Of a DNA stretch of 64,000 bases, positions 21,529 through 47,912 are shown piece by piece. The position numbers and the translations under genes were made by a program. This DNA is from Bacillota bacterium (GTDB lineage Bacteria; Bacillota; Desulfotomaculia; Desulfotomaculales; Desulforudaceae): positions 62,001 to 126,000 of the forward strand of contig JBFLXL010000002.1 in assembly GCA_040757205.1 (NCBI GenBank), written 5' to 3'. Below the pieces are notes generated by a model. It was given only the letters and a program-made list of their open reading frames with translations, did no database searches and had not been told where the DNA came from. The first letter of the stretch is position 1. Each line of letters begins with the position of its first letter.

Positions 21529-21556
21529 TTGACTGGTTTTAAGCAGATACTATAAA
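21529..21556 (+). promoter_or_regulatory. Sigma-A promoter of the antiporter operon
   Basis: TTGACT (21529-21534), a 16-bp spacer and TATAAA (21551-21556). It is followed by a leader with a hairpin at about 21583-21608 (AGCC-ttCCGGC-acaa-GCCGG-cttagGGCT) and TTTT, which could be an attenuator. The gap 21416-21660 holds no gene. Confidence 0.65.
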
Positions 21557-21660
21557 ATGTTTTTTAGGACCTTACCAATTGAGCCTTCCGGCACAAGCCG
21601 GCTTAGGGCTTTTGCATCAGCGCGGGGTCAGAGCCGCCTTTTATTTTGGAGGCAGACAAA

Positions 21661-22272
21661 ATGGCGGAACCCAAAAAGGCCATCAGCTTCCGCCTTCCCC
21701 TGGGGGCGGATCTTAAGTACAGCCTTCTTCTGACGCTCTTTCTTTTTGCTTTCTGGGTGGTGCTGTCCGGAAGGCTTGAAGCGCGATACTTGATTATCGG
21801 TTTTCTGACGGCGCTGGGCGTGACGGTGATCACCAGGCCTTTCTCCGTTTTGCCCCGGGATGGCACCGCCGGCGGCACGCCGGTTTCGGTCTGGGGTTTG
21901 CCCTGGCTGCGCCTGTTGGCCTTTTTGCCTTGGCTCTTCTGGGAGCTGGTGAAGTCCAGCGTGTCGATGGCCTGGCTGATCCTGCACCCGAAAATGCCCG
22001 TCGACCCGCAGGTCATCCGGTTTGAAAAGCACTTTCCGCACCCGGTCGGTTACCTCGTGCTGGCCAACTCCATCACCCTGACTCCGGGGACCCTCACCGT
22101 GGACGTGCAAGACGGCCGGTTCACCGTCCACTGCGTGCAGAAGGCGATGGCCGAGTCGCTGGCGCCCGCGGAACGCGAGGGCGAAATGCCGCGGCGGGTC
22201 GGTCTTGTCTTCGGTGCCGCACGTGCAGTCGACCTGGCCCTGGAAGACGACGACAACGGCGAGGAGCAATAG
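21661..22272 (+). CDS. mrpE: Mrp/Mbh-type antiporter subunit E
   Basis: A 203-residue membrane protein of the MnhE/MrpE (MbhA) family: two or three N-terminal membrane segments, LEARYLIIGFLTALGVTVI, and the conserved GYLVLANSITLTPGTLTVDV motif near residues 130-150. It is the first gene of a ten-gene operon. ATG 21661 follows TTGGAGGC at 21646-21653. The stop lies in the first of two GAGGAGCAATAGGAGGAGCAATAGG copies. Confidence 0.9.
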   Translation: MAEPKKAISFRLPLGADLKYSLLLTLFLFAFWVVLSGRLEARYLIIGFLTALGVTVITRPFSVLPRDGTAGGTPVSVWGLPWLRLLAFLPWLFWELVKSSVSMAWLILHPKMPVDPQVIRFEKHFPHPVGYLVLANSITLTPGTLTVDVQDGRFTVHCVQKAMAESLAPAEREGEMPRRVGLVFGAARAVDLALEDDDNGEEQ

Positions 22273-22351
22273 GAGGAGCAATAGGCTGGGATTTTCTAGC
22301 AAACACTCCGGGGAGTGTCTGGCGGCGAGGAGCAATAGGAGGAGCAATAGG
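22258..22351 (+). repeat. Junction duplication between mrpE and mrpF
   Basis: An exact 28-bp sequence at 22258-22285 is repeated at 22324-22351 (offset 66). The first copy carries the mrpE stop, the second serves as the mrpF ribosome-binding site. A small hairpin (ACACTCC/GGAGTGT, about 22302-22319) lies between them. Confidence 0.92.
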
Positions 22352-22353
22352 CC

Positions 22354-22635
22354 GTGCATTACTTTCTGCTGGCGCTTATCGTGGCCATCGGGGCCCTGAA
22401 TATCCTGGTGCTCTTCGGCCGGATCATTCCGGGGCCGACCGTTTTCGACCGCCTGGTCGGGATGAGCATCATCGGCAGCAACACCATCATCCTGTTCCTG
22501 TTGCTGGGGGCCGTGTGGGAGCGGCTGGACATGGTGGTCGACGTGGCCCTGGCCTACACGGTGGTAGGGTTCATCACCCTGTTGGTGCTGGCCAAGTATT
22601 TCGAGGGCAAGAGCGAGGAGGATGCCGAATCATGA
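22354..22635 (+). CDS. mrpF: Mrp/Mbh-type antiporter subunit F
   Basis: A 93-residue protein with three membrane segments and the MrpF (MbhB) signature RIIPGPTVFDRLVGMSIIGSN followed by DVALAYTVVGFITLLVLAKY. GTG start at 22354. The last codons overlap mrpG (ATGA). Confidence 0.9.
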   Translation: MHYFLLALIVAIGALNILVLFGRIIPGPTVFDRLVGMSIIGSNTIILFLLLGAVWERLDMVVDVALAYTVVGFITLLVLAKYFEGKSEEDAES

Positions 22636-22940
22636 CTTATGTGGCCGCTGCCCTGATGCTGGCCGGGTTTTTTCTGCTGCTGGTGGGGACCATCGGTGTG
22701 CTGCGCCTCCCCGACTTCTTCACCCGCCTGCACGCCGTGGGCAAGTGCGACACCCTGGGGATGCTCTTGTTTATCGCCGGGCTGATGGTTTACGAAGGAT
22801 TGAGCCTTATTGCCCTGAAGCTTGCGTTCATCTGGGTTTTCTTGGCCATCGCCAATCCCACGGCGACCCACATCTTCAGCCGCGCGGCCTACCGCGCCGG
22901 CCTGAAGCCGTGGACCCGCGGCAAGGAGGAAGCCGGCTGA
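22632..22940 (+). CDS. mrpG: Mrp/Mbh-type antiporter subunit G
   Basis: A 102-residue, three-helix protein. It has the MrpG (MbhC) signature GTIGVLRLPDFFTRLHAVGKCDTLG and the NPTATHIFSRAAY end. ATG 22632 overlaps the mrpF stop, and its own stop overlaps the next ATG, so translation is coupled throughout. Confidence 0.92.
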   Translation: MTYVAAALMLAGFFLLLVGTIGVLRLPDFFTRLHAVGKCDTLGMLLFIAGLMVYEGLSLIALKLAFIWVFLAIANPTATHIFSRAAYRAGLKPWTRGKEEAG

Positions 22941-23179
22941 TGGAAATTGTACAGGTGGTATTGCTGCTGGTCCTGATCGGCTGCGCCCTGGTGGCCCTGG
23001 GGGTGACCGACCTGCTGGTCGCCGTGATCCTTTTCGGGTCCTTCAGCTTCGCGTCGGCCATACTATTCGCCCTGATGAACGCGGTCGATGTCGGCTTTGT
23101 CGAGGCCATCATCGGGACGGTCATGAGTGTGATTTACATTTCCGTCCTGTTCGGCTTGGAGAGGAGGTCGTCCCGTTGA
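22940..23179 (+). CDS. MbhD-like (DUF4040) subunit, equivalent to part of the MrpA C terminus
   Basis: A 79-residue, three-helix hydrophobic protein. The pattern GVTDLLVAVILFGSFSFASA followed by ALMNAVDVGFVEAIIG matches the DUF4040/MbhD domain, which in MrpA is fused to the large NuoL-like part. Here it is a free-standing subunit. It overlaps both neighbours by a few bases. Confidence 0.85.
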   Translation: MEIVQVVLLLVLIGCALVALGVTDLLVAVILFGSFSFASAILFALMNAVDVGFVEAIIGTVMSVIYISVLFGLERRSSR

Positions 23180-23469
23180 AAAGGGTCACCCTGTTTTTCC
23201 TGGCGCTCATCGGCGGCCTCTTCATCTACGTCTCTTTCGACCTGCCCCGCGTGGGCGACCACCAGTCGCCGCCCGCGGTGCACGTTTCGCCGCGGTATAT
23301 CGAATCGGCCTACGAGGAGACGGGCACGCGGAACATGGTCAGCGCGGTGCTGGCGGACTACCGCAGCTTCGATACGTTGGGCGAAGTGCTGGTCATCGTC
23401 ATCGCCGGCCTGGCCATCGTCTCCATTCTCAGTGCCAGGGGACCGCACTGCCCGCTGGACGACCACTGA
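23176..23469 (+). CDS. MbhE-like subunit, equivalent to the end of the MrpA C terminus
   Basis: A 97-residue protein with two membrane helices. The features YVSFDLPRVGDHQSPP, HVSPRYIESAYEETGTRNMV and VLADYRSFDTLGEVLVI are diagnostic of the MbhE domain. The TTG start at 23176 overlaps the previous stop region. In canonical Mrp systems this domain is fused at the end of MrpA. Confidence 0.88.
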   Translation: MKRVTLFFLALIGGLFIYVSFDLPRVGDHQSPPAVHVSPRYIESAYEETGTRNMVSAVLADYRSFDTLGEVLVIVIAGLAIVSILSARGPHCPLDDH

Positions 23470-23474
23470 CTAAA

Positions 23475-23598
23475 AGCGTCCGGATGAAGCAGGGCTGTTG
23501 CCTGAACATGAATGGCAACGGGTCGGATACTCTGTCCGGCAGCGTCCGGATAAAGCACAGACTTGTTGCCTGAACATAGTGGCTTGTTGCCTGAATCC
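23475..23598 (+). repeat. Junction duplication between the mbhE-like gene and mrpB
   Basis: An AGCGTCCGGAT(G/A)AAGCA...TTGCCTGAACAT unit occurs at 23475-23509 and 23541-23577 (offset 66). A third partial unit (CTTGTTGCCTGAA) starts near 23583. Confidence 0.85.
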
Positions 23599-23631
23599 GG
23601 CTCGGTGGACTTTAGGAGGCGCGTGACCAAA

Positions 23632-24063
23632 ATGCGCAGGGGATTCGGCGGTATCGTCCTGAACATGGCTTTTCGTTTGCTGCTGCCCTTCATCATTGTG
23701 TTCGCCGTCGCCGTCCTGGTGCACGGCCACTACAGCCCCGGCGGGGGCTTCCAGGCCGGGGCGCTCCTGGGCGTGGCGGTGATTCTCGTCCAGCTCGTCC
23801 AGGGCCAGGACGCCAAGTGGGTGGGCCGCCGGGACGCGGTGACCCTCTCCTGCATCGGCGCCTTGATTTACCTGGGTATCGGCACGCTCTCCTTCTTTTG
23901 GGGCGGCAATTTTCTGGACTACGGGGTGATCCCCGTGGAGGCGACGGCGGCCAAGGCCCGCGCGCTGGGCATCCTGGGCATTGAAGTCGGGGTCACCCTG
24001 GCGGTGATGGGGGTCACGATCATCATGTTCGACTCGCTGACCCGGGAGAGGGGAGAAGAGTAG
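23632..24063 (+). CDS. mrpB: Mrp/Mbh-type antiporter subunit B
   Basis: A 143-residue, four-helix protein with the MnhB/MbhF hallmark VLVHGHYSPGGGFQAGAL. ATG 23632 and GTG 23623 are both in frame after TAGGAGG (23613-23619); spacing is 12 and 3 bases respectively, so the start is uncertain by three codons. Confidence 0.92.
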   Translation: MRRGFGGIVLNMAFRLLLPFIIVFAVAVLVHGHYSPGGGFQAGALLGVAVILVQLVQGQDAKWVGRRDAVTLSCIGALIYLGIGTLSFFWGGNFLDYGVIPVEATAAKARALGILGIEVGVTLAVMGVTIIMFDSLTRERGEE

Positions 24064-24065
24064 CG

Positions 24066-24458
24066 ATGCTCGGCCAGTATTACCACTTGCTCGACCACCT
24101 CGCCGGCTACGTGAGCTGGTGGCTGATCGGGGTTCTTTTTTTGATCGGCCTCTACGGCATCATAGTAAAGGAAAACCTGCTGAAAAAGATCATGGCCTTG
24201 AACGTGATGCAGGTGGCCGTGATCCTGTTCTTTCTGAACACGGCGCAGAAATCCGGGGCCACGCTGGCGGTGCTGCTCCCCGGAGAGACGGCCGGCGCCG
24301 TGGACGTCTACGTTAATCCGCTGCCGCACGCCCTGATGCTCACCGCGATCGTGGTCAGCCTGGCGGTGGTGGGCGTGGCCATGGCCCTTTTGATCCAGGT
24401 GTACCGCTGCTACGGCAGCCTGGAGGAGCCCGAGGTGCTCAGGAGGATGCGCAAATGA
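24066..24458 (+). CDS. mrpC: Mrp/Mbh-type antiporter subunit C (NuoK-like)
   Basis: A 130-residue, three-helix NuoK-like protein. It has the family segment GLYGIIVKENLLKKIMALNVMQVAVILFF and VNPLPHALMLTAIVVSLAV. It starts two bases after mrpB and its stop overlaps the next gene. Confidence 0.92.
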   Translation: MLGQYYHLLDHLAGYVSWWLIGVLFLIGLYGIIVKENLLKKIMALNVMQVAVILFFLNTAQKSGATLAVLLPGETAGAVDVYVNPLPHALMLTAIVVSLAVVGVAMALLIQVYRCYGSLEEPEVLRRMRK

Positions 24459-25963
24459 ACCAACACCTCCCGATCCTCATCGTCATCATCCCCCTGTTCG
24501 TGGCCATGGCGGCGCGCCTGTCGGTCCGGCTGTCCGTTCCGTTCACCCGGGGCCTGGTCCTGGCGGCGGCACTGGCCGTGTTGGCCTGCGGGGCCGGGGC
24601 GCTGGCCGAAACTCTGGCCCGGGGGGAACCGTGGCCCTACCACGTGGCCGGTTGGCCGCCGCCCTGGGGCATCGAACTCGTCATCGATCCCCTGTCGGGC
24701 GGCATGGTCGTCCTGGTCGCTTTCTTCGGCCTGGCCGCCCTGGTGTATGCCGGGCCGTACCTGCAGGGCCGGACGCCGCGGGAGCAAGGGTCTTTCTACG
24801 CCCTTTTCCTGCTCGCCTTGGCCGGCCTCTTGGGTATCTGCGTCACCGGCGACCTCTTCAACCTGTTCGTGTTCCTGGAGATCTCTTCCCTGGCGGCGTA
24901 CGCCCTGATCGCTTTCGGGGGGCGCCGGGCGATCGTGGCCGCCCTGCGCTACCTGATCATCGGCACGGCCGCCGCCTGTTTCTATCTCTTGGGGGTCGGC
25001 TACCTCTACGCGGTGACCGGCTCCCTGAACATGGCCGACCTGGCGGTACTGTTGCCGCCGCTTATGGATTCACCGGCGGTCATCCTGGCCGTGGTCTTCA
25101 TCGTGGCCGGCCTGGGCGTCAAGACGGCGCTCTTCCCGCTCCACGGCTGGCTGCCGGACGCGTACAGCTACACGCCGGCCCCGGTGCTGGCCTTTATGGC
25201 CGCCGTGATGACCAAGGTGAGCGCGTACGCCCTGTACCGGATCCTGTACTTCGTGACCGAGGCCGCCGGACCGGTGTCCGTGACCCTGGAGGCGCTCGGG
25301 TGGATGGCGGCCGCGGGCATACTGTTCGGTTCGGTCATGGCCATCGCCCAGCGCGATTTCTGGCGGATGCTGGCCTATTCCAGCGTGGCCCAGGTGGGGT
25401 ACATCGTTCTCGGGCTGGCGCTGGGCAACGTCTTGGCGCTGTACGGCGCGCTTCTGCACGTCGTCAGTCACTCGCTCGTGAAGGGCGGGCTCTTTTTCAT
25501 CGCCGGGGGCGTCAGTTGGGAAACCGGTGTGCGGCGGGTGCCGGACTTCGTGGGCATGGCCAAAAAGATGCCGCTCACCATGGCCGCCTTTGTGGTCGCC
25601 GCGTTCTCCATGATCGGGTTGCCGCCCACGCTGGGGTTCTTCAGCAAGTGGTACCTGGTGCTGGGATGCCTGGAGGCGCGTGCCTGGGGGTTCGCCGCCG
25701 TGCTCGTCGTGAGCAGCCTTTTGACAGCGGTCTATTTCTTCCGGGTGATTGAGAACGCCTACCTGAAGGGCAGGCCGGAGGCGGGGGCGGCGGGGGCCGA
25801 ACAGCCGGTCCGGCCGCGCGGGCGGCGGTTCAGGCTGGAGCTGCCGGCCGGCATGCTGCTGCCGATCCTGGTGTTGAGCCTGGGCGTGGCGGTCCTGGGC
25901 CTTTTCAACGAGCAGATCATCAGCAACGTGATCCACTACGCGCTGCCGTGGAGGTTGCCTTAA
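24455..25963 (+). CDS. mrpD: Antiporter-like subunit D, first copy (NuoL/M/N family)
   Basis: A 502-residue protein with about 14 membrane helices. Key charged residues of the proton-antiporter fold are present: Glu in NLFVFLEISSLAAY, Lys in GLGVKTALFPLHGWLPDAYS, and Lys in AAVMTKVSAYALYRI. Its position after mrpC matches MrpD/MbhH. The ATG at 24455 overlaps mrpC. The gene ends in a sequence duplicated 72 bp later at the start of the next gene. Confidence 0.92.
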   Translation: MNQHLPILIVIIPLFVAMAARLSVRLSVPFTRGLVLAAALAVLACGAGALAETLARGEPWPYHVAGWPPPWGIELVIDPLSGGMVVLVAFFGLAALVYAGPYLQGRTPREQGSFYALFLLALAGLLGICVTGDLFNLFVFLEISSLAAYALIAFGGRRAIVAALRYLIIGTAAACFYLLGVGYLYAVTGSLNMADLAVLLPPLMDSPAVILAVVFIVAGLGVKTALFPLHGWLPDAYSYTPAPVLAFMAAVMTKVSAYALYRILYFVTEAAGPVSVTLEALGWMAAAGILFGSVMAIAQRDFWRMLAYSSVAQVGYIVLGLALGNVLALYGALLHVVSHSLVKGGLFFIAGGVSWETGVRRVPDFVGMAKKMPLTMAAFVVAAFSMIGLPPTLGFFSKWYLVLGCLEARAWGFAAVLVVSSLLTAVYFFRVIENAYLKGRPEAGAAGAEQPVRPRGRRFRLELPAGMLLPILVLSLGVAVLGLFNEQIISNVIHYALPWRLP

Positions 25964-26057
25964 ATGCCGGCTGAAGTTGTGTTCTACAGACCGCGCGGAA
26001 AAGGTGTCCGGGCTAACCAGTGGAGGTTGCCATAAATGCAGGCTGAAGTTGTGTTCT
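25948..26057 (+). repeat. Junction duplication covering the start of the second antiporter subunit
   Basis: A 38-bp sequence at 25948-25985 is repeated at 26020-26057 with two mismatches. Each copy holds the end of GGAGGTTGCC(T/A)TAA and an ATG, so the start site has been duplicated. Confidence 0.93.
25964..26035 (+). other. 23-codon micro-ORF created by the start duplication
   Basis: From the first ATG (25964) the frame encodes MPAEVVFYRPRGKG... and ends at TAA immediately before the ATG of the next gene (TAAATG). The first residues resemble the true N terminus downstream (MQAEVVFS). It may couple translation between the two antiporter genes, or be an accident. No evidence that the peptide itself is functional. 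Confidence 0.5.
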
Positions 26058-27559
26058 CCGTAGCGCCCCTGGTGGCCGTGCTCATCTCCCTGGCCGCCGC
26101 CGGGCTGATCCTGTTCTGCGACCGGCGTCCGGACCTGCGGGAGGGCGTGACCATGGTCGCGGCGGCGGCCAAGTTCGCCGTCGTCCTGTCCATGCTGCCG
26201 GCGGTCCTCGGCGGGGCGGTGGTGGAGACGGCGCCGCTCGACATCGCCAAGGGCATCGCCCTGCACTTCCGGGTGGACGCCTTCGGCCTGCTGTTTGCCC
26301 TGCTGGCCTCATGCTTGTGGATTATCACTTCGGTGTACTCCATCGGGTACATGCGTTCCCTGAAATACGGACACCAGACCGGCTATTTCGCCAGTTTCGC
26401 CGTGTGCCTCTCGGCGGCGGCGGGTATCGCCATGTCCGGCAACCTGCTGACGTTCTTCATCTTCTACGAAATCCTGACCATCGCCACCTACCCGCTGGTC
26501 ATTCACCGGCGGAACGCGGCGGCGGTGTCCGGGGGCCGGGAGTATCTGGTGTACCTGCTTCTGGCCGGTCAGGTGCTCTTCATCGCCGTGGCTTGGGCCC
26601 ACTGCCTGGCGCCCGGCGCCGCGTTCACCCCGGGCGGGTTCCTGGCGGACACCGGGGCGTCGGTGCTGGCGCTGCAGGTGTTGTTCGTGCTGTTCATGGT
26701 CGGGGTGGGCGTGAAGGCGGCCGTCATCCCTTTGCACGGCTGGCTGCCGACGGCGATGGTGGCGCCCACACCGGTGAGCGCCCTGCTGCACGCGGTGGCG
26801 GTCGTGAAAGCGGGGGCGTTCGCGGTGGTGCGGGTGACCGGCTTCGTGTTCGGGCCGGAACTGATGGGTGAGTTGGGCGTGGGCGTGATCCTGGCCTGGC
26901 TCGCGGCGGCGACGATCATCTTCGCCTCGCTGCGGGCGCTGTCCGAGGACCACTTAAAGCGGCGGCTCGCCTACTCGACCGTCAGTCAACTGTCGTACGT
27001 GGTGCTGGGCGCCGCCCTGGCCACGCCAGCGGCGATGCTGGGGGCGATGTTCCACATCGTGGCCCACGCCTTTATGAAGATCACCCTGTTCTTCTGCGCC
27101 GGGGCGATCTACGCCACCACCCACAAGGAATATATCCGGGAGCTGGACGGGCTGGGCCGGCGGATGCCGTACACCATGGGCGCCTTCGCGGCCGCCGCGC
27201 TGGCCATCACCGGCATGCCGCTTCTGGTTGGGTTCATCAGCAAATGGAACCTGGGCGTCGGCGCGGTCCAGGCCGGGCAACCGGTGTTCATCGCCGTGCT
27301 GATCGGCAGCGCGCTCCTTAATGCCGCCTACTTCTTCCCGATCGTGTACCGCGCCTATTTCGGGCGGGCCGGGGAAGAGGCGGCGGTGGCGGGCGGGGAG
27401 GCGAAGCCGAGCATGCTGGTGCCGCTTTTGATCACCGCGGCGGCGGCGCTGGTGCTGGGCGTGCTTCCGAACCTCGGCCTGCAGTTCTACACGCTGGCCC
27501 AGATGGCGGCCGCGGCCGTGGCGGGCGGCGCCCCGGGTCCGGCCGGAGGGGGAATGTGA
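26036..27559 (+). CDS. Antiporter-like subunit D, second copy (NuoL/M/N family)
   Basis: A 507-residue, multi-helix protein. It keeps the Glu in FFIFYEILTIATYPL, the Lys in GVGVKAAVIPLHGWLPTAM, and the Lys in HAVAVVKAGAFAVVRV. It is similar to MrpD and to the NuoL-like part of MrpA. With MbhD- and MbhE-like proteins separate, this could be the counterpart of the MrpA N-terminal domain. Its end is duplicated at 27605-27632. Confidence 0.9.
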   Translation: MQAEVVFSVAPLVAVLISLAAAGLILFCDRRPDLREGVTMVAAAAKFAVVLSMLPAVLGGAVVETAPLDIAKGIALHFRVDAFGLLFALLASCLWIITSVYSIGYMRSLKYGHQTGYFASFAVCLSAAAGIAMSGNLLTFFIFYEILTIATYPLVIHRRNAAAVSGGREYLVYLLLAGQVLFIAVAWAHCLAPGAAFTPGGFLADTGASVLALQVLFVLFMVGVGVKAAVIPLHGWLPTAMVAPTPVSALLHAVAVVKAGAFAVVRVTGFVFGPELMGELGVGVILAWLAAATIIFASLRALSEDHLKRRLAYSTVSQLSYVVLGAALATPAAMLGAMFHIVAHAFMKITLFFCAGAIYATTHKEYIRELDGLGRRMPYTMGAFAAAALAITGMPLLVGFISKWNLGVGAVQAGQPVFIAVLIGSALLNAAYFFPIVYRAYFGRAGEEAAVAGGEAKPSMLVPLLITAAAALVLGVLPNLGLQFYTLAQMAAAAVAGGAPGPAGGGM

Positions 27560-27632
27560 ATTGAAACGCCCAACGCCAAACCCGTCTCGCGGGCGATTTC
27601 GGGGCCCGGGACCGGCCGGAGGGGGAATGTGA
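27532..27632 (+). repeat. Junction duplication after the second antiporter subunit
   Basis: A 28-bp unit (CCCGGGTCCGGCCGGAGGGG...) at 27532-27559 is repeated with one mismatch at 27605-27632 (offset 73). The first copy contains the stop codon, the second supplies the ribosome-binding site of the next gene. Confidence 0.92.
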
Positions 27633-27633
27633 C

Positions 27634-27855
27634 GTGAAGAAGTGGCCTTTAATCGCGCTCGTGGGGGCGCTGGCGTTGAGTTTCGTGGCCGACCTCCTGC
27701 TCCGGGAGAGCTACGGTCACGGTAAATTCTGGTGGAGTGAGCTTTACGGCTTCGACCTCCTGTTCGGCTTTTTGGGCTGTCTGGCCATTGTGTGGGTGTC
27801 CAAGGCGCTGGGCAAGCACTTCGTGCAGCGCGGCGAAGACTACTACGACAGGTGA
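27634..27855 (+). CDS. Small two-helix membrane protein in the antiporter operon
   Basis: A 73-residue protein with two hydrophobic segments (about residues 5-21 and 33-53) and a charged C terminus (LGKHFVQRGEDYYDR). I do not recognise a named family. It lies between two antiporter subunits and its stop overlaps the next in-frame GTG, so a small accessory subunit is likely. The start GTG 27634 has GGAGGGGGAATG upstream from the duplicated junction. Confidence 0.7.
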   Translation: MKKWPLIALVGALALSFVADLLLRESYGHGKFWWSELYGFDLLFGFLGCLAIVWVSKALGKHFVQRGEDYYDR

Positions 27856-29636
27856 GCGCGGGTTTTATGCCGATGATGCATCCTTCAGTATTCCTGGCGG
27901 CCGGGGCGCTATTGGTCCTGGTCCTGCCGGCCAAATGGCGCCACCTGGGCCTCCTGGGTGGGCCGGTATTGGCCGTGCCGGCGGTTTTGGGCCTCCAGCC
28001 GGGCACGGTCGTGCCTTTCCCGTTCCTGGACTTCGAGCTCCAGGTACTGCGCGTGGACGCCTTGGCCCGCGTGTTCGGGATTGTTTTCGCCGTGACGGCC
28101 CTCCTCGGGGCCGTATACGCGCTGCACGTGAAAACGCGGGGCGAGCACGCGGCGGCGCTTCTCTACGCCGCCGGTTCCCTGGGCGTGGTTTTCGCCGGCG
28201 ATTGGCTGACGCTTTTCCTCTGCTGGGAAGTGATGGCCGCCTCGTCGGTGTTTTTGATCTGGTTCCGGGGGCGGCCCGCATCGCTGGCCGCGGGTTTTCG
28301 CTACCTTCTGGTGCACTTTTTGGGCGGGAACCTCTTGCTGGCCGGCATTCTGCTGCTGATGAGCCAGGGCAGCCTGACCGTGACCTCCCTGACGGGGACC
28401 GGCGGCCCGGCCTACTGGCTGATCCTGGCCGGGGTGGCCATCAACGCGGCGATCGTGCCCCTGCACGCCTGGCTGACCGACGCCTACCCCGAGGGCACCG
28501 TGACCGGCAGCGTTTTCTTAAGCGCCTTCACCACCAAGGTCGCCGTGTGCGTTTTGATCCGGGTGTTCCCCGGCACTGAACTTTTGATCTGGGCCGGCGT
28601 GGTTATGGCGCTCTACGGGGCGGTGTACGCCCTCCTGGAGAACGACGCCCGGCGCCTGCTGGCCTATTCCATCATCAGCCAGGTGGGGTACATGGTGGCC
28701 GCGGTCGGCATCGGCACGGAGTTGGCCATAAATGGCGCCACGGCCCACGCCTACAGCCACATCCTGTACAAGGCGCTCCTCTTTATGGGCGCCGGCGCGG
28801 TGCTCTACGCCACCGGCCGGAGCCGGCTCACCGAACTGGGGGGCATCGCCCGGGCGATGCCCGCGGTCGTGGTGCTGTTTATGATCGGCAGCCTCTCCAT
28901 CTCCGGGGTGCCGCTTTTGAACGGGTTTATCAGCAAGTCGCTCGTGGTGTACGCGTCGGAGGCGAGCGGGCTGGCCCTGGTGACCCTGCTCCTGCAATTG
29001 GCCGGCGTGGGGACCTTCCTGCACACCGGGTTGAAGCTGCCGTACCTGATGTTCTTCGGCGAAAACCGCCATGGCTTGCGGCCGGCGAAACTGCCGCTGA
29101 ACATGTACGCGGCCATGGCCGGCGGCGCTTTCTTGTGTACCCTTTACGGCGTTTACCCGGCGCTATTGTACGCCGAGCTGCCCTATCCGCTGGCCTACGA
29201 GCCGTTCGCGGCGTCCAAAGTGCTGGCCGGCGTGCAGCTTCTGCTGGCGGCCGCCGCGGGTTTCTGGCTTTGCCGGCCCGGATTCGGCGCCGAACCGGCT
29301 ATTTCGCTTGATTTCGACTGGTTCTACCGCAAGCCGGCCGCCGCCCTGCTCGGGCGCACGCTCCACGGTATGCGCGGGGTCAAGGGCACGGTGGAGGGCT
29401 GGGGCGCGGCGTTTTTCCGGATTGCGGCCCCTTACGTGCGCAACCCGCTCCTGGTGGGGGTGGACCTGTTGCGGAACACCAGCTACCGGGCGGCCCGCCG
29501 ACTTGACCAGGACGGCTGGAGCGGCCGGGTTCCCTACGATGAGAACCGGCACCGCTTCCCGACCGGGTTCAGCGTGCTCTGGAGCCTCATGTTCCTGGGC
29601 CTGATGGCGGTGCTCCTGTACACCGGGGTGCTGTAG
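27852..29636 (+). CDS. Antiporter-like subunit D, third copy, with altered helix 7 lysine
   Basis: A 594-residue multi-helix protein of the NuoL/M/N family. The helix-5 Glu is kept (TLFLCWEVMAASSVF) and a Lys is kept in SAFTTKVAVCVLIRV. The usual Lys before PLHxWLxDAY is Asn (AINAAIVPLHAWLTDAY). A long hydrophilic stretch (about 480-570, with FDWFYRKPAAALLG) precedes one last membrane helix, an arrangement seen in some large D-type subunits. GTG 27852 overlaps the previous stop (GTGA) and ATG 27867 is an alternative; no strong ribosome-binding site is visible, so coupling is likely. The 3' end is tandemly duplicated. Confidence 0.87.
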   Translation: MSAGFMPMMHPSVFLAAGALLVLVLPAKWRHLGLLGGPVLAVPAVLGLQPGTVVPFPFLDFELQVLRVDALARVFGIVFAVTALLGAVYALHVKTRGEHAAALLYAAGSLGVVFAGDWLTLFLCWEVMAASSVFLIWFRGRPASLAAGFRYLLVHFLGGNLLLAGILLLMSQGSLTVTSLTGTGGPAYWLILAGVAINAAIVPLHAWLTDAYPEGTVTGSVFLSAFTTKVAVCVLIRVFPGTELLIWAGVVMALYGAVYALLENDARRLLAYSIISQVGYMVAAVGIGTELAINGATAHAYSHILYKALLFMGAGAVLYATGRSRLTELGGIARAMPAVVVLFMIGSLSISGVPLLNGFISKSLVVYASEASGLALVTLLLQLAGVGTFLHTGLKLPYLMFFGENRHGLRPAKLPLNMYAAMAGGAFLCTLYGVYPALLYAELPYPLAYEPFAASKVLAGVQLLLAAAAGFWLCRPGFGAEPAISLDFDWFYRKPAAALLGRTLHGMRGVKGTVEGWGAAFFRIAAPYVRNPLLVGVDLLRNTSYRAARRLDQDGWSGRVPYDENRHRFPTGFSVLWSLMFLGLMAVLLYTGVL

Positions 29637-29907: not shown

Positions 29908-29944
29908 ATAAGTGAACACAACACAAGCGAAAGGAGTGAATGAC

Positions 29945-30178
29945 ATGCGTGTGTCAGCCACCGAATTCAAGATGAACATGGGCAAGTATATCGAGCGCGC
30001 CGCCGTTGAGGACATCATCATCACCCGCAACGGAAAGGATGTTGCGCTCCTCACAAACGTCGAGGGCAAAAAGAAAGACGCGCTCAAATCCCTGCGCGGC
30101 ATTATAAAGGGTGCCGAACTCACCTGCGGCCAAATCCGCGAGGAAAGGTTGGGCAGGTACCGTGAAAATTCTAATTGA
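29945..30178 (+). CDS. Phd/YefM-family antitoxin
   Basis: A 77-residue antitoxin. The N-terminal DNA-binding fold starts MRVSATEFKMNMGKYIERA and continues IIITRNGKDVALLTNV, the Phd/YefM pattern. The C-terminal tail (IKGAELTCGQIREERLGRY) would wrap the toxin. ATG 29945 follows AAAGGAGTG. The stop lies inside the toxin gene (start GTG 30162), the usual overlap in type II modules. The segment 29735-29878 holds no gene. Confidence 0.87.
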   Translation: MRVSATEFKMNMGKYIERAAVEDIIITRNGKDVALLTNVEGKKKDALKSLRGIIKGAELTCGQIREERLGRYRENSN

Positions 30179-30605
30179 CACCAACGTCATCATTGATTAC
30201 CTTGCCGACCGGGCACCCTTCGCGGATCATTCCGAACAGGTGCTGGCTCTCTGCGAGAGCGGAGAGGTCGACGGTTTGGTTACGGCCAACGCAGTTACCG
30301 ACATCTACTACGTGATGCGCAAGGTGGCCGGGAGAGAAAAAACGCTGGAAGCCATCCAGACGCTCTGTTCCATCTTGGATATTGCGGACGTAGGGAAAGC
30401 CGATATCCTGAACGCGATGGAACTTGATATGCCCGACTATGAGGATGCTCTGGCCGCACAGTGTGCAAAGCGTAACAAGGCCGACTGCATCGTCACGCGT
30501 GATGTCACCGGCTACGCCAACTCGCCGGTTCCGGCAAAAGAACCGGCTGCCTTCCTGAAACAATTTGGGGCGTCCACCGGGGGTCATAGCGAGGAGGTCA
30601 GCTGA
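30162..30605 (+). CDS. PIN-domain toxin (VapC-like ribonuclease)
   Basis: A 147-residue PIN nuclease. Acidic site residues are in KILIDTNVIIDYLAD, a DIYYVMRK segment, MPDYEDALAAQCA and ADCIVTRD, matching the four-acid PIN active site. VapC-type proteins cleave tRNA or rRNA; the target here is unknown. Paired with the overlapping Phd-type antitoxin. The module is inserted between the antiporter operon and rpmE. Confidence 0.87.
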   Translation: MKILIDTNVIIDYLADRAPFADHSEQVLALCESGEVDGLVTANAVTDIYYVMRKVAGREKTLEAIQTLCSILDIADVGKADILNAMELDMPDYEDALAAQCAKRNKADCIVTRDVTGYANSPVPAKEPAAFLKQFGASTGGHSEEVS

Positions 30606-41211: not shown

Positions 41212-41254
41212 ATAAATAGCTGAAAAGAGCTTGGGAAGGAGGTGAGTACACGCG

Positions 41255-42019
41255 GTGGCGGCGGACTATGCAGGACAAGGCGAAAAAACGGTGCTGGAAA
41301 AGATGCATCACGACCTGAACATTTACGGAATTCCAAAACACTGGGATTTGGGGGAGTTTCTGGGTTTTCCGATCCAGTTGAACGCGGAAACTATCTTCCA
41401 CACCTGGGTGGCGATGGCGGTAACCCTGCTGATCGCCTGGGTGGCCGTGCGGCGGATCGACATGCGCCGGCCGGGGAAGATGCAGGTTTGCTTCGAGATG
41501 CTGTTCGATTTTCTACGCGGCCTGATCAATCAGAGTATGAGCCCGAAGAAGGGTGCCGGGCTGTTCTCGATCGTCGTGACCTTTTTCTTGTTCATCGCCG
41601 TGATGAACGTGATGGGTGTGGTGCCCACCTACGTCAAACCCACGGCCGACATCCAGACCACATTTGCCTTTGCGTTGATCACGGTATCCCTGATCTACAT
41701 CTGGGGCATCAAGTACAAGGGTGCCAAATACTTCAAGCACTACGTCTCCCCAAGCCCGATCTTCCTGCCGATCACCCTCATCGAAGACATCGCCAAACCG
41801 GTAACCCTGGCCTTCCGGCTTTTCGGCAACATGAAGGGCAAGGAAATCATGATTTTATCGCTTTTGGCCCTCATCAGCGGCACGAGTTGGCTGGCCGGCG
41901 GGTTCCTGGCGGGGACGCTCTGGTTGCTGTTCTGCATCTTCATCTCGTTGATCCAGGCTTTCGTGTTTACAATGCTGACCATTGCTTTTGTAAGCAGTGC
42001 GGTAAGTGAAGATCACTAG
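41255..42019 (+). CDS. atpB: ATP synthase Fo subunit a
   Basis: A 254-residue membrane protein with about six helices. The essential Arg is in VTLAFRLFGNMKGKEI. The ATIFHTW and FVFTMLTIAFVSSAV segments are typical. GTG 41255 lies 11 bases from GAAGGAGGTGAG. Immediately after the stop lies a 3-fold TGAAGACG repeat (42020-42043). Confidence 0.95.
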   Translation: MAADYAGQGEKTVLEKMHHDLNIYGIPKHWDLGEFLGFPIQLNAETIFHTWVAMAVTLLIAWVAVRRIDMRRPGKMQVCFEMLFDFLRGLINQSMSPKKGAGLFSIVVTFFLFIAVMNVMGVVPTYVKPTADIQTTFAFALITVSLIYIWGIKYKGAKYFKHYVSPSPIFLPITLIEDIAKPVTLAFRLFGNMKGKEIMILSLLALISGTSWLAGGFLAGTLWLLFCIFISLIQAFVFTMLTIAFVSSAVSEDH

Positions 42020-42135
42020 TGAAGACGTGAAGACGTGAAGACGTGAAAACTTTGAGACTTGAAGACGTAACGGGGCGGGGTCGTCGGCAAATGCGGGATC
42101 TACCCGCAAGAACTCATAAAAACAAACAGAAATAA

Positions 42136-42384
<249 letters not shown>

Positions 42385-42419
42385 GTTCGTATGTGTTCCA
42401 TTCAATTTAGGGTCTGATG

Positions 42420-42456
42420 AGCAGGTTTTAGTCTCCTCCAGGCGCTAAAACCTGCT
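42420..42456 (+). promoter_or_regulatory. Strong intercistronic hairpin between atpE and atpF
   Basis: A perfect 12-bp stem AGCAGGTTTTAG/CTAAAACCTGCT with a 13-base loop, and no T-run after it. It may protect or process the 3' end of the atpE message so that subunit c is made in excess; it could also be a partial terminator. Confidence 0.75.
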
Positions 42457-42507
42457 TCACCCTATCTTTATGTTCTCATGTCACCAAGGAAGGAGGAGAA
42501 CGGGTAG

Positions 42508-42999
42508 GTGGTAGATCTCAGTTTTAACGCCACAGTGTTCATGCAGATGTTCCACTTCCTCCTCATGCTTGTAGTCTTGCGCTTGTTTGCCTACCGGCCG
42601 CTGATGAACGTGATCGAGCAGCGGCAGGTCTACATCGCCGACGAGATTGAAGCGGCCGAGAAGCAAAAAGTTGCGGCGGCCGAACTCCGCAGCCGGCTGG
42701 AGGCCGACCTGGCCAAAGCCCGTGACGAAGCCAAGGCGATCGTGACCCGGGCCACCAAGGCCAGTGAGGAGCAGGCACAGGCGATTATGGAACAGGCCCG
42801 TACCGAGGCCCAGCGCCTGAAGGAAGAGGCCCTGGCCGAGATCGGACGCGAGAGGGAGAAGGCGATCGCCCAGTTGAGGGATGAAGTGGCGTCGCTGGCG
42901 GTACTGGTGGCGGCCAAGGTGGTCAAGGACGCCCTGACCATCGACGCGCAGCACAACCTGGTACAGAATGCCATTAAAGAGGTGGGGCAACTGCAATGA
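42508..42999 (+). CDS. atpF: ATP synthase Fo subunit b
   Basis: A 163-residue protein with one N-terminal helix (about 8-26; VFMQMFHFLLMLVVLRLF) and a long charged coiled coil that forms the stator. GTG 42508 follows AAGGAGGAGAA. It overlaps atpH by four bases. Confidence 0.94.
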   Translation: MVDLSFNATVFMQMFHFLLMLVVLRLFAYRPLMNVIEQRQVYIADEIEAAEKQKVAAAELRSRLEADLAKARDEAKAIVTRATKASEEQAQAIMEQARTEAQRLKEEALAEIGREREKAIAQLRDEVASLAVLVAAKVVKDALTIDAQHNLVQNAIKEVGQLQ

Positions 43000-43544
43000 T
43001 TAAGGGAGCGGTTGCCGCGCGTTACGCCCAGGCGCTTTTCGACGTGGCACGAGACAACAACCGGGTAGCCGAGACCGAGAATGAACTTCGCGGGTTCATG
43101 CGGTTGGTTGACGAGTCTCGTGACCTGCAGCAGGTGCTGTATAACCCCCAGGTCCCGGTCGAACTCAAGAAGGAGATCGTCAGGGAGGCCTTTGGGAAGG
43201 CGCTTTCCGGGACCACCCTCAATTTCCTCTGCTTAGTCCTGGACCGCCGCCGGGAGCCGTATTTGAAGGGCATTGCGGAGCGTTTCTTTGGCCTGGCCAA
43301 CGAAACCCGCAATATCGTCGAGGCGGAGGTGACCACGGCCCTCGAGCTTTCGGTGGTGCACAAGGTCAACCTCATGCAGGTTCTTTCCCGGATGACCGGC
43401 AAGGAACTCCGGATTCGCTACCAGGTTGATCCCGACATCCTCGGCGGCCTGGTGGTTCGTTTGGGGGATCGCATTATCGACGGCAGCGTCAAGAGGCAAC
43501 TTGAGCGGTTGAAGGACAGCATCCGCGAAACTAAAGTTGGATAG
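42996..43544 (+). CDS. atpH: ATP synthase F1 subunit delta
   Basis: A 182-residue delta subunit linking the stator to F1. AARYAQALFDVARDNN opens it and the C-terminal DPDILGGLVVRLGDRIIDGSVKRQL is the family signature. Confidence 0.95.
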   Translation: MIKGAVAARYAQALFDVARDNNRVAETENELRGFMRLVDESRDLQQVLYNPQVPVELKKEIVREAFGKALSGTTLNFLCLVLDRRREPYLKGIAERFFGLANETRNIVEAEVTTALELSVVHKVNLMQVLSRMTGKELRIRYQVDPDILGGLVVRLGDRIIDGSVKRQLERLKDSIRETKVG

Positions 43545-43559
43545 GGGTGACAGAGGGGT

Positions 43560-45083
43560 ATGAATCTGAGGCCAGAAGAAATCAGTTCCATCATCCGGCA
43601 ACAGATTGAAAAATACGAAGTACAAGTAGAGGTAGCAGACGTCGGCACGGTCATCCAGATCGGTGACGGCGTATCGCGGGTGTATGGACTGAAAGATTGC
43701 ATGTATTCCGAGTTGCTGGAGTTTCCGGGGGGCACCCTGGGAATGGCCCTCAACCTGGAAGAGGACAACATCGGTTGCGTTATCCTGGGCCGCTACCTGC
43801 ACATCAAGGAAGGCGACGTGGTCCGGCGGACCGGCCGCATTGCGTCGGTGCCGGTGGGCGACGCGCTGATCGGGCGCGTGGTCAACCCGGTCGGCGAGCC
43901 GCTGGACGGCAAGGGGCCCATCAAGTCCGACAAGTTCCGCCCCATTGAAAAGATCGCCCACGGCGTGGTGTTCCGGTCTCCGGTGGACACCCCGGTGCAG
44001 ACCGGCATTAAGGCCATCGACGCTATGATCCCGGTCGGCCGCGGCCAGCGCGAGCTGATCATGGGCGACCGCCAGACCGGCAAGACGGCGATCGCCGTGG
44101 ACACCATCATCAACCAGAAGGGTCAGGACTGCCTCTGCATTTACGTGGCCATCGGCCAGAAATCCTCCACCGTGGCGAACGTGGTGCAAAAACTGCACGA
44201 AGAGGGCGCCATGGACCACACCATCGTGGTCGTGGCCGGCGCCTCGGACCCGTCCCCGCTCCTGTACATCGCCCCCTTCGCCGGCGCGGCGATGGGCGAG
44301 GAGTTCATGGAAGCCGGCAAGGACGTCCTGATCGTTTACGACGACCTTTCCAAGCAGGCGGCCGCCTACCGCGAGCTGTCGCTCCTCTTGCGGCGCCCGC
44401 CCGGCCGCGAAGCCTACCCGGGCGACGTGTTCAACCTGCACTCCCGGCTCCTGGAGCGGGCCGCCAAGTTGCACCCGAATATCGGCGGCGGTTCCCTGAC
44501 CGCGCTGCCGGTCATCGAGACCCAGCAGGGCGACGTGTCCGCCTACATTCCGACGAACGTGATCTCCATCACGGACGGACAGATCATCCTGGAGCCCGAC
44601 CTGTTCTACGCCGGCGTGCGCCCGGCCGTCAACGTCGGCCTTTCGGTGTCGCGCGTGGGCGGCAAAGCCCAGCGGACCGCGATGCGCCAGGTGGCCGGCC
44701 AGCTCCGCCTCGACCTGGCCCAGTACCGGGAACTGGCGGCTTTCGCCCAGTTCGGATCCGACCTCGACCGGGCCACCCGGGCGCGGTTGACCCGCGGCGA
44801 GCGCATGGTCGAACTCTTAAAGCAGGGCCAGTACAACCCGATGCCGCTCGAGGACCAGGTCATGTCCATCTACACCGGGGTGCGCGGTTTCCTGGACAGC
44901 CTCCCGGCGGACAAGGTGGCCGTTTTCGAGACTGAGTTCCTGAAGTACATGCGTACCGAGAAGCCCGAGATCGGCGGGGACATCAGGGCCAACCTGAAGA
45001 TTACCCCGGAAAACGAGCCCAAGCTGAAGGCCGCTGTGGAAGAATTCAAGCAGATGTTTATTACACAGCACGGGCTAAGCTAG
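43560..45083 (+). CDS. atpA: ATP synthase F1 subunit alpha
   Basis: A 507-residue subunit. Walker A is [35 protein letters not shown] and the [35 protein letters not shown] stretch are conserved. Confidence 0.97.
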
Positions 45084-45105
45084 AAGCGGAAGGTGAGGTG
45101 TTAGG

Positions 45106-45999
45106 ATGCCTGCGCTTCGCGACTTTCGGCGGCGCATCAAGAGCGTAAAGAGTACCCAGAAGATCTGCAAGGCCATGAAGGCCGTGGCCACGGCCAAGAT
45201 GGCCCGGGCCCAGGCGACCGTGGTCGCCGCGCGGCCTTACGCCCGGCAGCTGCACGAGGTGCTGGGCCGGGTGGCTTCCGCGGCCACTGACGTGCAGAAT
45301 CCCCTGTTGACGGTACGTGAACCGAAAAAGGTGTGCTACATCGTAATTACCGCCGACCGCGGTTTGTGCGGCGGTTTCAACTCCAACCTCCTGCGCACCG
45401 CCGTCCGGGAACTGAACAAGTGGGACGACTTCAGCCTGGTGGCTGTGGGCCGCAAGTGCCGGAACTTCTTCCGCTTCCGGGAGTGGGAGCGGGATGCGGA
45501 GTTCATCGGCCTGGGCGAGGACATCCGGTTTGAGCAGGGCCAGGAGATCGCCCGGTTTGCGATCAACAAGTACATCGCCGGCGAGTACGACGCGGTGTAC
45601 ATGGTGTACAGCAAATTCGTGAACATGCTGGTCCAGCAGCCGACCGTGGTGAAGCTCCTCCCGGTGGAGCCGCCGGCCGAGGAGGCCGTCGCGGCAAAGG
45701 CCGGGGAAGGGGAAGAGGCGGCCGCCCCGAAAAAGACGAGGGTCGACTACATCTTCGAGCCCTCCGCCGCGGACGTCCTGGATTACCTGTTGCCCAGGTA
45801 CGTGGAGAACAGCGTGTACCATGGTTTGATCGAGTCCAAGGCCAGCGAGCAGAGTGCCCGCATGATGGCGATGGATGCGGCCACCAAGAACGCGGGTGAA
45901 ATGATCGATCGCCTGACGCTCCAGATGAACCGGCTGCGCCAGGAAGGCATCACCAAGGAGTTGCTGGACATCGTCGGCGGCGCGGCGGCACTCGAATAA
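45106..45999 (+). CDS. atpG: ATP synthase F1 subunit gamma
   Basis: A 297-residue rotor shaft subunit. LRDFRRRIKSVKSTQKICKAM opens it; ITADRGLCGGFNSNLLR and AMDAATKNAGEMIDRLTLQMN are conserved. An acidic, Ala-rich insert (about 190-210, EEAVAAKAGEGEEAAAPKK) makes it slightly longer than usual. Confidence 0.96.
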   Translation: MPALRDFRRRIKSVKSTQKICKAMKAVATAKMARAQATVVAARPYARQLHEVLGRVASAATDVQNPLLTVREPKKVCYIVITADRGLCGGFNSNLLRTAVRELNKWDDFSLVAVGRKCRNFFRFREWERDAEFIGLGEDIRFEQGQEIARFAINKYIAGEYDAVYMVYSKFVNMLVQQPTVVKLLPVEPPAEEAVAAKAGEGEEAAAPKKTRVDYIFEPSAADVLDYLLPRYVENSVYHGLIESKASEQSARMMAMDAATKNAGEMIDRLTLQMNRLRQEGITKELLDIVGGAAALE

Positions 46000-46008
46000 T
46001 GTTCGTGA

Positions 46009-47442
<1,434 letters not shown>

Positions 47443-47498
47443 AGCGGCGGCGGGGATCGCGGGAACCGGTCAACGAGCAAGTAAGGATGTGGATATGA

Positions 47499-47912
47499 AT
47501 GGCGGATTCCACCCAAAAGGTTTCCATCGTTACCCCTGAGCGGGTGATCTACGGAGACGAGGCCCGTTTCGTCCACGTCCGGGGTACCGACGGCGATCTG
47601 GGTTTCCTGCCGGGGCACACCGCGCTTATTTCCAGCTTGAGGCCCGGCCTGCTCCGCATCCAGAAAGAGGGCCAGTGGAACACGTTCGTAGTTGCGGGCG
47701 GCTTCGTGGAGGTCCGTGACAGCCGGGTGGTCGTGCTGGCCAACGCTGCGGAGCGCCCCGAGGAGATCGACCTCGCCCGGGCGGAAAAGGCCAGGGAGCG
47801 CGCCGAGAAGCGCCTGGCCGCCAAGGACCCCGAGATCGACGTGGTCCGGGCCAAGGCGGCGCTGGCGCGCGCCACGGCCAGGATCGAAGCGGCCGGACAG
47901 ATCAGGCGCTAA
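47499..47912 (+). CDS. atpC: ATP synthase F1 subunit epsilon
   Basis: A 137-residue subunit. The N-terminal beta-sandwich includes SIVTPERVIYGDEARFVHVRGTDGDLGFLPGH. The C-terminal helical hairpin starts near IDLARAEKARERAEKRL. Last gene of the operon. Confidence 0.95.
   Translation: MADSTQKVSIVTPERVIYGDEARFVHVRGTDGDLGFLPGHTALISSLRPGLLRIQKEGQWNTFVVAGGFVEVRDSRVVVLANAAERPEEIDLARAEKARERAEKRLAAKDPEIDVVRAKAALARATARIEAAGQIRR

Follow-up and report, generated by a model that had tools for sequence, protein, structure and literature searches.

The window analysed here, a stretch of 64,000 nucleotides from contig JBFLXL010000002.1 (positions 62,001 to 126,000) of a Bacillota bacterium of the Desulforudaceae (GCA_040757205.1), carries on its plus strand, between positions 21661 and 29636, eleven genes of a predicted Mrp-type cation/proton antiporter. 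Their order is MrpE-F-G-MbhD-MbhE-MrpB-C-D1-D2-(an open reading frame (ORF) of 73 amino acids)-D3. Pfam and NCBIfam searches recovered every named subunit in the order given by an initial annotation of this DNA, namely E-F-G-MbhD-MbhE-B-C-D followed by two more D-type subunits and a small protein. The catalogued small subunits as well as D1 and D2 each scored above the Pfam cut-off, the families being MNHE, MrpF_PhaF, PhaG_MnhG_YufB, MbhD (PF13244), MbhE (PF20501), MnhB and Oxidored_q2, with Proton_antipo_M for both D1 and D2; D3 reached 704.7 bits against NCBIfam PRK12668 (cut-off 564). The gene pairs F/G, G/MbhD, MbhD/MbhE and C/D1 overlap and most other genes are closely spaced, with gaps of about 75 bases between D1 and D2 and between D2 and the small ORF. 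No oxidoreductase gene lies within the run, in agreement with the earlier statement that hydrogenase genes are absent.

The cluster begins with MrpE (21661-22272; PF01899, 2e-35), the only copy in the genome, followed by MrpF (22354-22635; PF04066, 1.8e-11) and MrpG (22632-22940; PF03334, 7.9e-26). The MbhD-like gene (22940-23179; PF13244, 1.7e-12) and the MbhE-like gene (23176-23469; PF20501, 1.8e-12) are each homologous to part of the C-terminus of MrpA. Both are free genes, so that the region 22940-23469 holds separate subunits and not the C-terminus of a single large MrpA as in group 1 and 2 Mrp, and the earlier description of an unfused MrpA is borne out. MrpB/MbhF-like (23632-24063; PF04039, 1.4e-27), the start of which was inferred from relatives, and MrpC/NuoK-like (24066-24458; PF00420, 1.5e-20) precede the antiporter-like subunits D1 (24455-25963; PF00361, 7.5e-62), which adjoins the MbhD/E/C core, and D2 (26036-27559; PF00361, 6.7e-57). 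The small ORF (27634-27855) has a GTG start and is followed by D3 (27867-29636), the terminal antiporter-like subunit. Alignments revealed that characteristic motifs are retained in MrpF (GPxxxDR), MrpG (RLPD), MbhE (FDTLGE) and MrpB (PGGGF).

Within the same class, D3 exceeded the PRK12668 cut-off in 14 of 113 genomes, the window's own included; of the other 13 stretches, 11 displayed the Mrp order, one held a truncated D1-D2-small-D3, and another (G007) carried a complex I operon. Scanning 84,980 species genomes with a D3 alignment yielded at least 578 relatives, the best 80 of which were retained. Our counts rest on 96 loci. D3 lies in an Mrp setting in 45 of them, in a complex I setting in 31 and near both in three, and 17 were left undetermined, many of them on short contigs. 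Nearly the full gene set of the window recurs in 43/96 loci, and the gene order is therefore far beyond chance. Settings of the window type were found in Bacillota, Chloroflexota, Thermodesulfobacteriota, Pseudomonadota, Myxococcota, Acidobacteriota, Spirochaetota, Verrucomicrobiota, Nitrospirota, Elusimicrobiota, Bacteroidota and Balneolota, and among archaea under the labels Methanophagales and Methanomicrobiales; in the haloarchaeon Halomontanus rarus, the annotated genes run E-F-G-DUF4040-B-C-D1-D2-D3. Since the same order extends across many phyla and to a haloarchaeon, what had been taken for a specifically archaeal, Mbh-like order is the ordinary order of bacterial and haloarchaeal group 3 Mrp. 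Between congeners the order is retained, with about 85-95% protein identity in most subunits. Among the Mrp-context loci, catalytic or anchor genes of complex I or hydrogenases occurred in the fetched stretch at two only. In L103, two copies of D2-small-D3 occur side by side, one in an Mrp operon and the other in the complex I operon that directly follows it. In L058 (Spirochaetia), genes labelled D1-like, EchB-like, D1-like and EchE-like come after the Mrp operon and may point to a linked redox pump.

In the 31 complex I operons, the trio of D2, small ORF and D3 occupies the place of NuoL (J-K-(D2-small-D3)-M-N). Replacement of NuoL by two MrpD-like subunits is reported for the green complex I of rhizobia and for Manganitrophaceae (PMC9040806), and the nuo2 region of S. 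meliloti indeed has no annotated NuoL. Our loci extend this replacement to desulfobacteria, verrucomicrobia, planctomycetes, acidobacteria and others. The window carries the same module, with two MrpD-like subunits of the same clades and an EDYY small protein between them. In a D3 tree calculated with the C-terminal helix region excluded and rooted on haloarchaeal D3, the complex I cases are nested inside the Mrp cases, with three changes of setting compared to 25.7 for shuffled labels. This nesting, in a tree with a long outgroup branch and from a quick tree search, suggests that the module was transferred from Mrp to complex I.

Judging from its conservation, the ORF at 27634-27855, the small membrane protein of the initial annotation, is a real gene for a conserved, predicted two-helix membrane subunit. 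Nearly all loci with sequence between D2 and D3 have a relative at this place; a strict pattern for the tail, GEDYYD in our sequence, detected it in 75/95 loci, and reading the gaps added most of the others, mostly with variant or cut tails. In an alignment of 54 members, Gly45, Lys57, Tyr70 and Tyr71 do not vary, and Cys49, Glu68 and Asp69 hardly do. The rate of nonsynonymous substitution (dN) was below that of synonymous substitution (dS) in each of the three congeneric pairs (against L037, 0.098 versus 0.357). AlphaFold placed helices at residues 3-22 and 40-64 followed by a loose tail, with a predicted local distance difference test score (pLDDT) of 84 and a predicted template-modelling score (pTM) of 0.54. 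Neither Pfam nor NCBIfam provided a trustworthy match, PDB sequences gave none at E-values up to 10, and weak family matches (best E about 1e-3, one to four members each) were inconsistent and taken as chance. In S. meliloti and Ensifer records, the protein is annotated as hypothetical. That it neighbours D2 and D3 in both types of complex suggests that it is part of the D2-D3 module. Tails other than EDYY were also seen: L079, L068 and L111 (SAR202 and other Chloroflexota) have a DPYTGE-type tail, and in L115 (6960-7401) the ORF extends into a longer protein with an apparently lipoyl- or glycine-cleavage-H-like tail in place of EDYY, owing either to gene fusion or to faulty assembly.

In a tree of 88 subunits, D1, D2 and D3 formed separate deep clades (support 97, 100 and 100), each including the matching haloarchaeal subunit and all outside the NuoL, NuoM, NuoN, MrpA and MrpD groups; D2 adjoins MrpA/NuoL/EchA weakly (support 85). 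Both of the additional D-type subunits of the initial annotation are thus present, though that term understated D2 and D3, which are deep clades of their own beyond MrpA and MrpD. The glutamate of transmembrane helix (TM) 5, the lysine equivalent to NuoL K342 and the lysine of TM12 occur in all three clades, and the TM8 lysine in all D2, all D3 and 10 of 12 D1 sequences. The TM7 lysine is present in D1 (12/12) and D2 (20/20). In our operon, D1 itself has the TM5 glutamate and the lysines of TM7, TM8 and TM12, and D2 the TM5 glutamate, the TM7 lysine and the TM8 histidine. At this position D3 has asparagine in 19 of 20 sequences, in Mrp and complex I settings alike (N193 in our D3), and so lacks the TM7 lysine of a NuoL/MrpA-type terminal subunit; the NuoL/MrpA-type TM8 histidine is confined to D2 (20/20). 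An AlphaFold model of D3 from a 68-sequence alignment (mean pLDDT 92.6, pTM 0.86) displays an antiporter core followed by three helical stretches: one at 449-468, a long one at 485-525 that extends to 548 with short interruptions, and the last at 566-585. D3 is thereby predicted to have, after its core of 14 TMs, the horizontal helix and last TM of a terminal subunit. Foldseek and VIA-align matched the model to NuoL, MrpA, MrpD and MbsH' (Z 45.5 for NuoL 8e9g_L and 43.3 for MrpA 7d3u_A), and the top PDB sequence for D3 was MbsH' (6u8y_X). With such a NuoL/MrpA-type end, D3 probably covers the role of the N-terminal part of MrpA.

Statements on the whole genome refer to an assembly of 2.03 Mb (97.5% complete) and rest on family searches and fetched stretches. 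The NuoL-family domain has four copies, namely D1, D2, D3 and a 655-residue protein, EchA, on contig 12, and no separate intact MrpA was found in these searches. EchA was considered as an MrpA, its best NCBIfam match being antiporter subunit A; it was rejected, as only the N-terminal part of the profile is covered and the gene lies within an Ech operon. The search for an MbhJ-N-like module revealed this one operon, which contains EchA, EchB, EchC, EchE and a NuoI-like ferredoxin and holds the sole NuoH/MbhM-like anchor gene and the sole strong MbhL/NuoD-like gene of the genome. EchE retains CERICGIC and DPCMSC, the two nickel-ligand motifs of [NiFe] hydrogenases, and by its gene content the operon is predicted to encode an Ech hydrogenase that has both an antiporter subunit and an anchor of its own. 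The one examined of four other Oxidored_q6 matches (L009) is a soluble VhuG-type [NiFe] hydrogenase small subunit. Genome searches found no second Mrp, no orphan redox module in need of a membrane arm, and neither Rnf nor Nqr, which were therefore rejected as Na+ partners of the Mrp.

As to the surroundings of the run, a gene for a radical SAM-like protein precedes it, and a consensus scan alone indicated a promoter-like site on the plus strand about 100 bases upstream (TTGACT-18-TAAAAT, 21529-21558). Directly 3' of the operon, at 29912-30605, a Phd-family antitoxin gene (TIGR01552) is followed by an overlapping ORF of 164 amino acids, a PIN-type toxin by its look that matched no NCBIfam model.

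Group 3 Mrp is defined by the absence of mrpA and the presence of one or more mrpD (PMC8415708). Our locus has MrpB, C, E, F and G in one operon with three D-type genes, and no MrpA was detected in the genome. By gene content it is a stand-alone group 3 Mrp (cation/proton antiporter family 3, CPA3) of a widespread known type, with predicted antiport activity. The gene set NuoA-D, H and I of complex I or green complex I was found neither at the locus nor in the genome searches, and the operon has no MbhJ/K/L/M/N-type redox module as in the membrane-bound hydrogenase (MBH) or the membrane-bound sulfane sulfur reductase (MBS). The Mrp of P. furiosus (mrpEFGBB'CD) and those of haloarchaea have the same subunit families, no mrpA and one or more mrpD. 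The P. furiosus operon, however, has one D subunit instead of three, and the annotated haloarchaeal one lacks a separate small gene between D2 and D3, while MbhD and MbhE are two genes here. With MBH and MBS of P. furiosus, the locus shares the MbhA-H order (E-F-G-MbhD-MbhE-B-C-D), D3 being closest to MbsH' among PDB sequences, but it differs from them in the missing MbhJ-N module and in having three antiporter-like subunits compared to one (MBH) or two (MBS). The nuo2 green complex I of S. meliloti has the same D2-small-D3 trio in the place of NuoL (PMC9040806), though joined to a full NADH:quinone oxidoreductase, in contrast to an Mrp core without redox genes here. In group 1 and 2 Mrp (Bacillus, Anoxybacillus, Dietzia), a horizontal helix likewise clamps antiporter-like subunits beside the cation module; there MrpA is one large protein, whereas here it is split into genes and one more antiporter-like subunit is present. 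In the literature searched, we found no description of this variant architecture for Mrp. The locus is thus of a known kind, with a variant architecture and an uncatalogued conserved subunit.

In all, we consider it very probable that the product of the locus is a complete group 3 Mrp cation/proton antiporter that stands alone and comprises three antiporter-like subunits plus one additional small subunit. Cations would be translocated at an end built from E, F, G, B, C, MbhD and MbhE. D1 would take the position of MrpD/MbsH and dock on MbhD, MbhE and C, followed by D2 and by D3 as the far end. The horizontal helix of D3 would run back over D2 towards D1 and clamp both, like HL of NuoL, MrpA and MbsH', and the small protein probably packs either where D2 meets D3 or against the same helix. 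The most likely function is Na+/H+ antiport driven by the proton motive force, in which protons entering via the D subunits would drive Na+, or another monovalent cation, out via E/F/G/B. Such activity would serve pH and Na+ homeostasis, could reverse given a Na+ gradient, and would require no electron-transfer partner; the proton gradient exchanged for Na+ could be built up by Ech or by other H+ exporters. That a redox-free group 3 Mrp can be physiologically active and Na+-linked follows from P. furiosus, where deletion of the stand-alone Mrp revealed Na+-linked pH homeostasis (PMC8415708).

Some points weigh against this reading. A gene may have been missed at the given completeness of the assembly. 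A third proton path through D3 is doubtful because of the asparagine at the TM7 lysine position. Work on MBS explained that the horizontal helix keeps the antiporter-like subunits joined and is longer or shorter according to how many there are (PMC7684303); between DWFYR and the C-terminus of D3, however, the median distance is 104 residues with three antiporter-like subunits (Mrp) versus 101 with four (complex I). As no clear difference exists between the two contexts, helix length was dropped as a ruler of subunit number.

Another direction or another ion, with the complex mainly exporting protons at the expense of a Na+ gradient or exchanging K+ or Ca2+, appears unlikely. The Mrp of P. furiosus was proposed to run both ways (PMC8415708), and some Mrps carry K+ or Ca2+ (PMC5703873), but the usual motifs of the Mrp small subunits are retained here and no pointer to K+ or Ca2+ was seen in the sequence. 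An F1Fo ATP synthase-like operon is located 12 kb downstream (41242-47912), and its c subunit (42154-42384) has a Glu in helix 2 followed by a Ser. An Asp stands where Na+ sites have Gln. These residues are ambiguous as to whether H+ or Na+ is the main coupling ion of the cell, which leaves room for the alternative, and the reading of the coupling ion from the c subunit was dropped.

The initial annotation had left open whether the pump stands alone with three antiporter modules or teams up with a redox module elsewhere; the first part stands. We regard it as very unlikely that the operon supplies the membrane arm for a redox-driven pump, an Mbh-, Mbs- or complex I-like machine in two pieces with its catalytic module encoded elsewhere. 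Complex I operons of many bacteria do contain the D2-small-D3 module, the genome does have an Ech hydrogenase, and redox genes lie beside the Mrp operons of L058 (EchB/EchE-like) and L103 (complex I). The only NuoH/MbhM-like anchor and strong MbhL/NuoD-like gene, however, sit in the Ech operon with its own EchA and EchB, the examined Oxidored_q6 match is of the VhuG type, and nearly all relatives in Mrp settings stand alone. A decayed or hybrid locus, that is a former Mbh-type operon which lost its hydrogenase genes and gained antiporter duplicates, would fit the MbhA-H order but is hardly credible and largely refuted by phylogeny and distribution, as the order is kept between well-conserved congeners and recurs across phyla, D1, D2 and D3 are three old clades instead of recent duplicates, and complex I contexts nest inside Mrp contexts on the D3 tree.

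The pumping arm of complex I is believed to derive from Mrp antiporters. Our results can tentatively be read as follows, which we regard as quite possible though short of probable. D2-small-D3 would be an exchangeable end module with a dedicated, uncatalogued EDYY subunit; it would have originated in Mrp and been transferred, perhaps repeatedly, into complex I, replacing NuoL in many phyla; and D3, because it is a last subunit without the TM7 lysine, would transmit or clamp in a way unlike a standard antiporter-like subunit. The interest of the locus lies in a module common with complex I and not in an Mbh without its hydrogenase. The EDYY protein is a conserved subunit overlooked by annotation, and in D3, although it is widely kept, asparagine naturally replaces the TM7 lysine. 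Occurring in stand-alone Mrp and in complex I operons, with the latter nested inside the former on its tree, the trio offers a testable instance of a modular step toward complex I.

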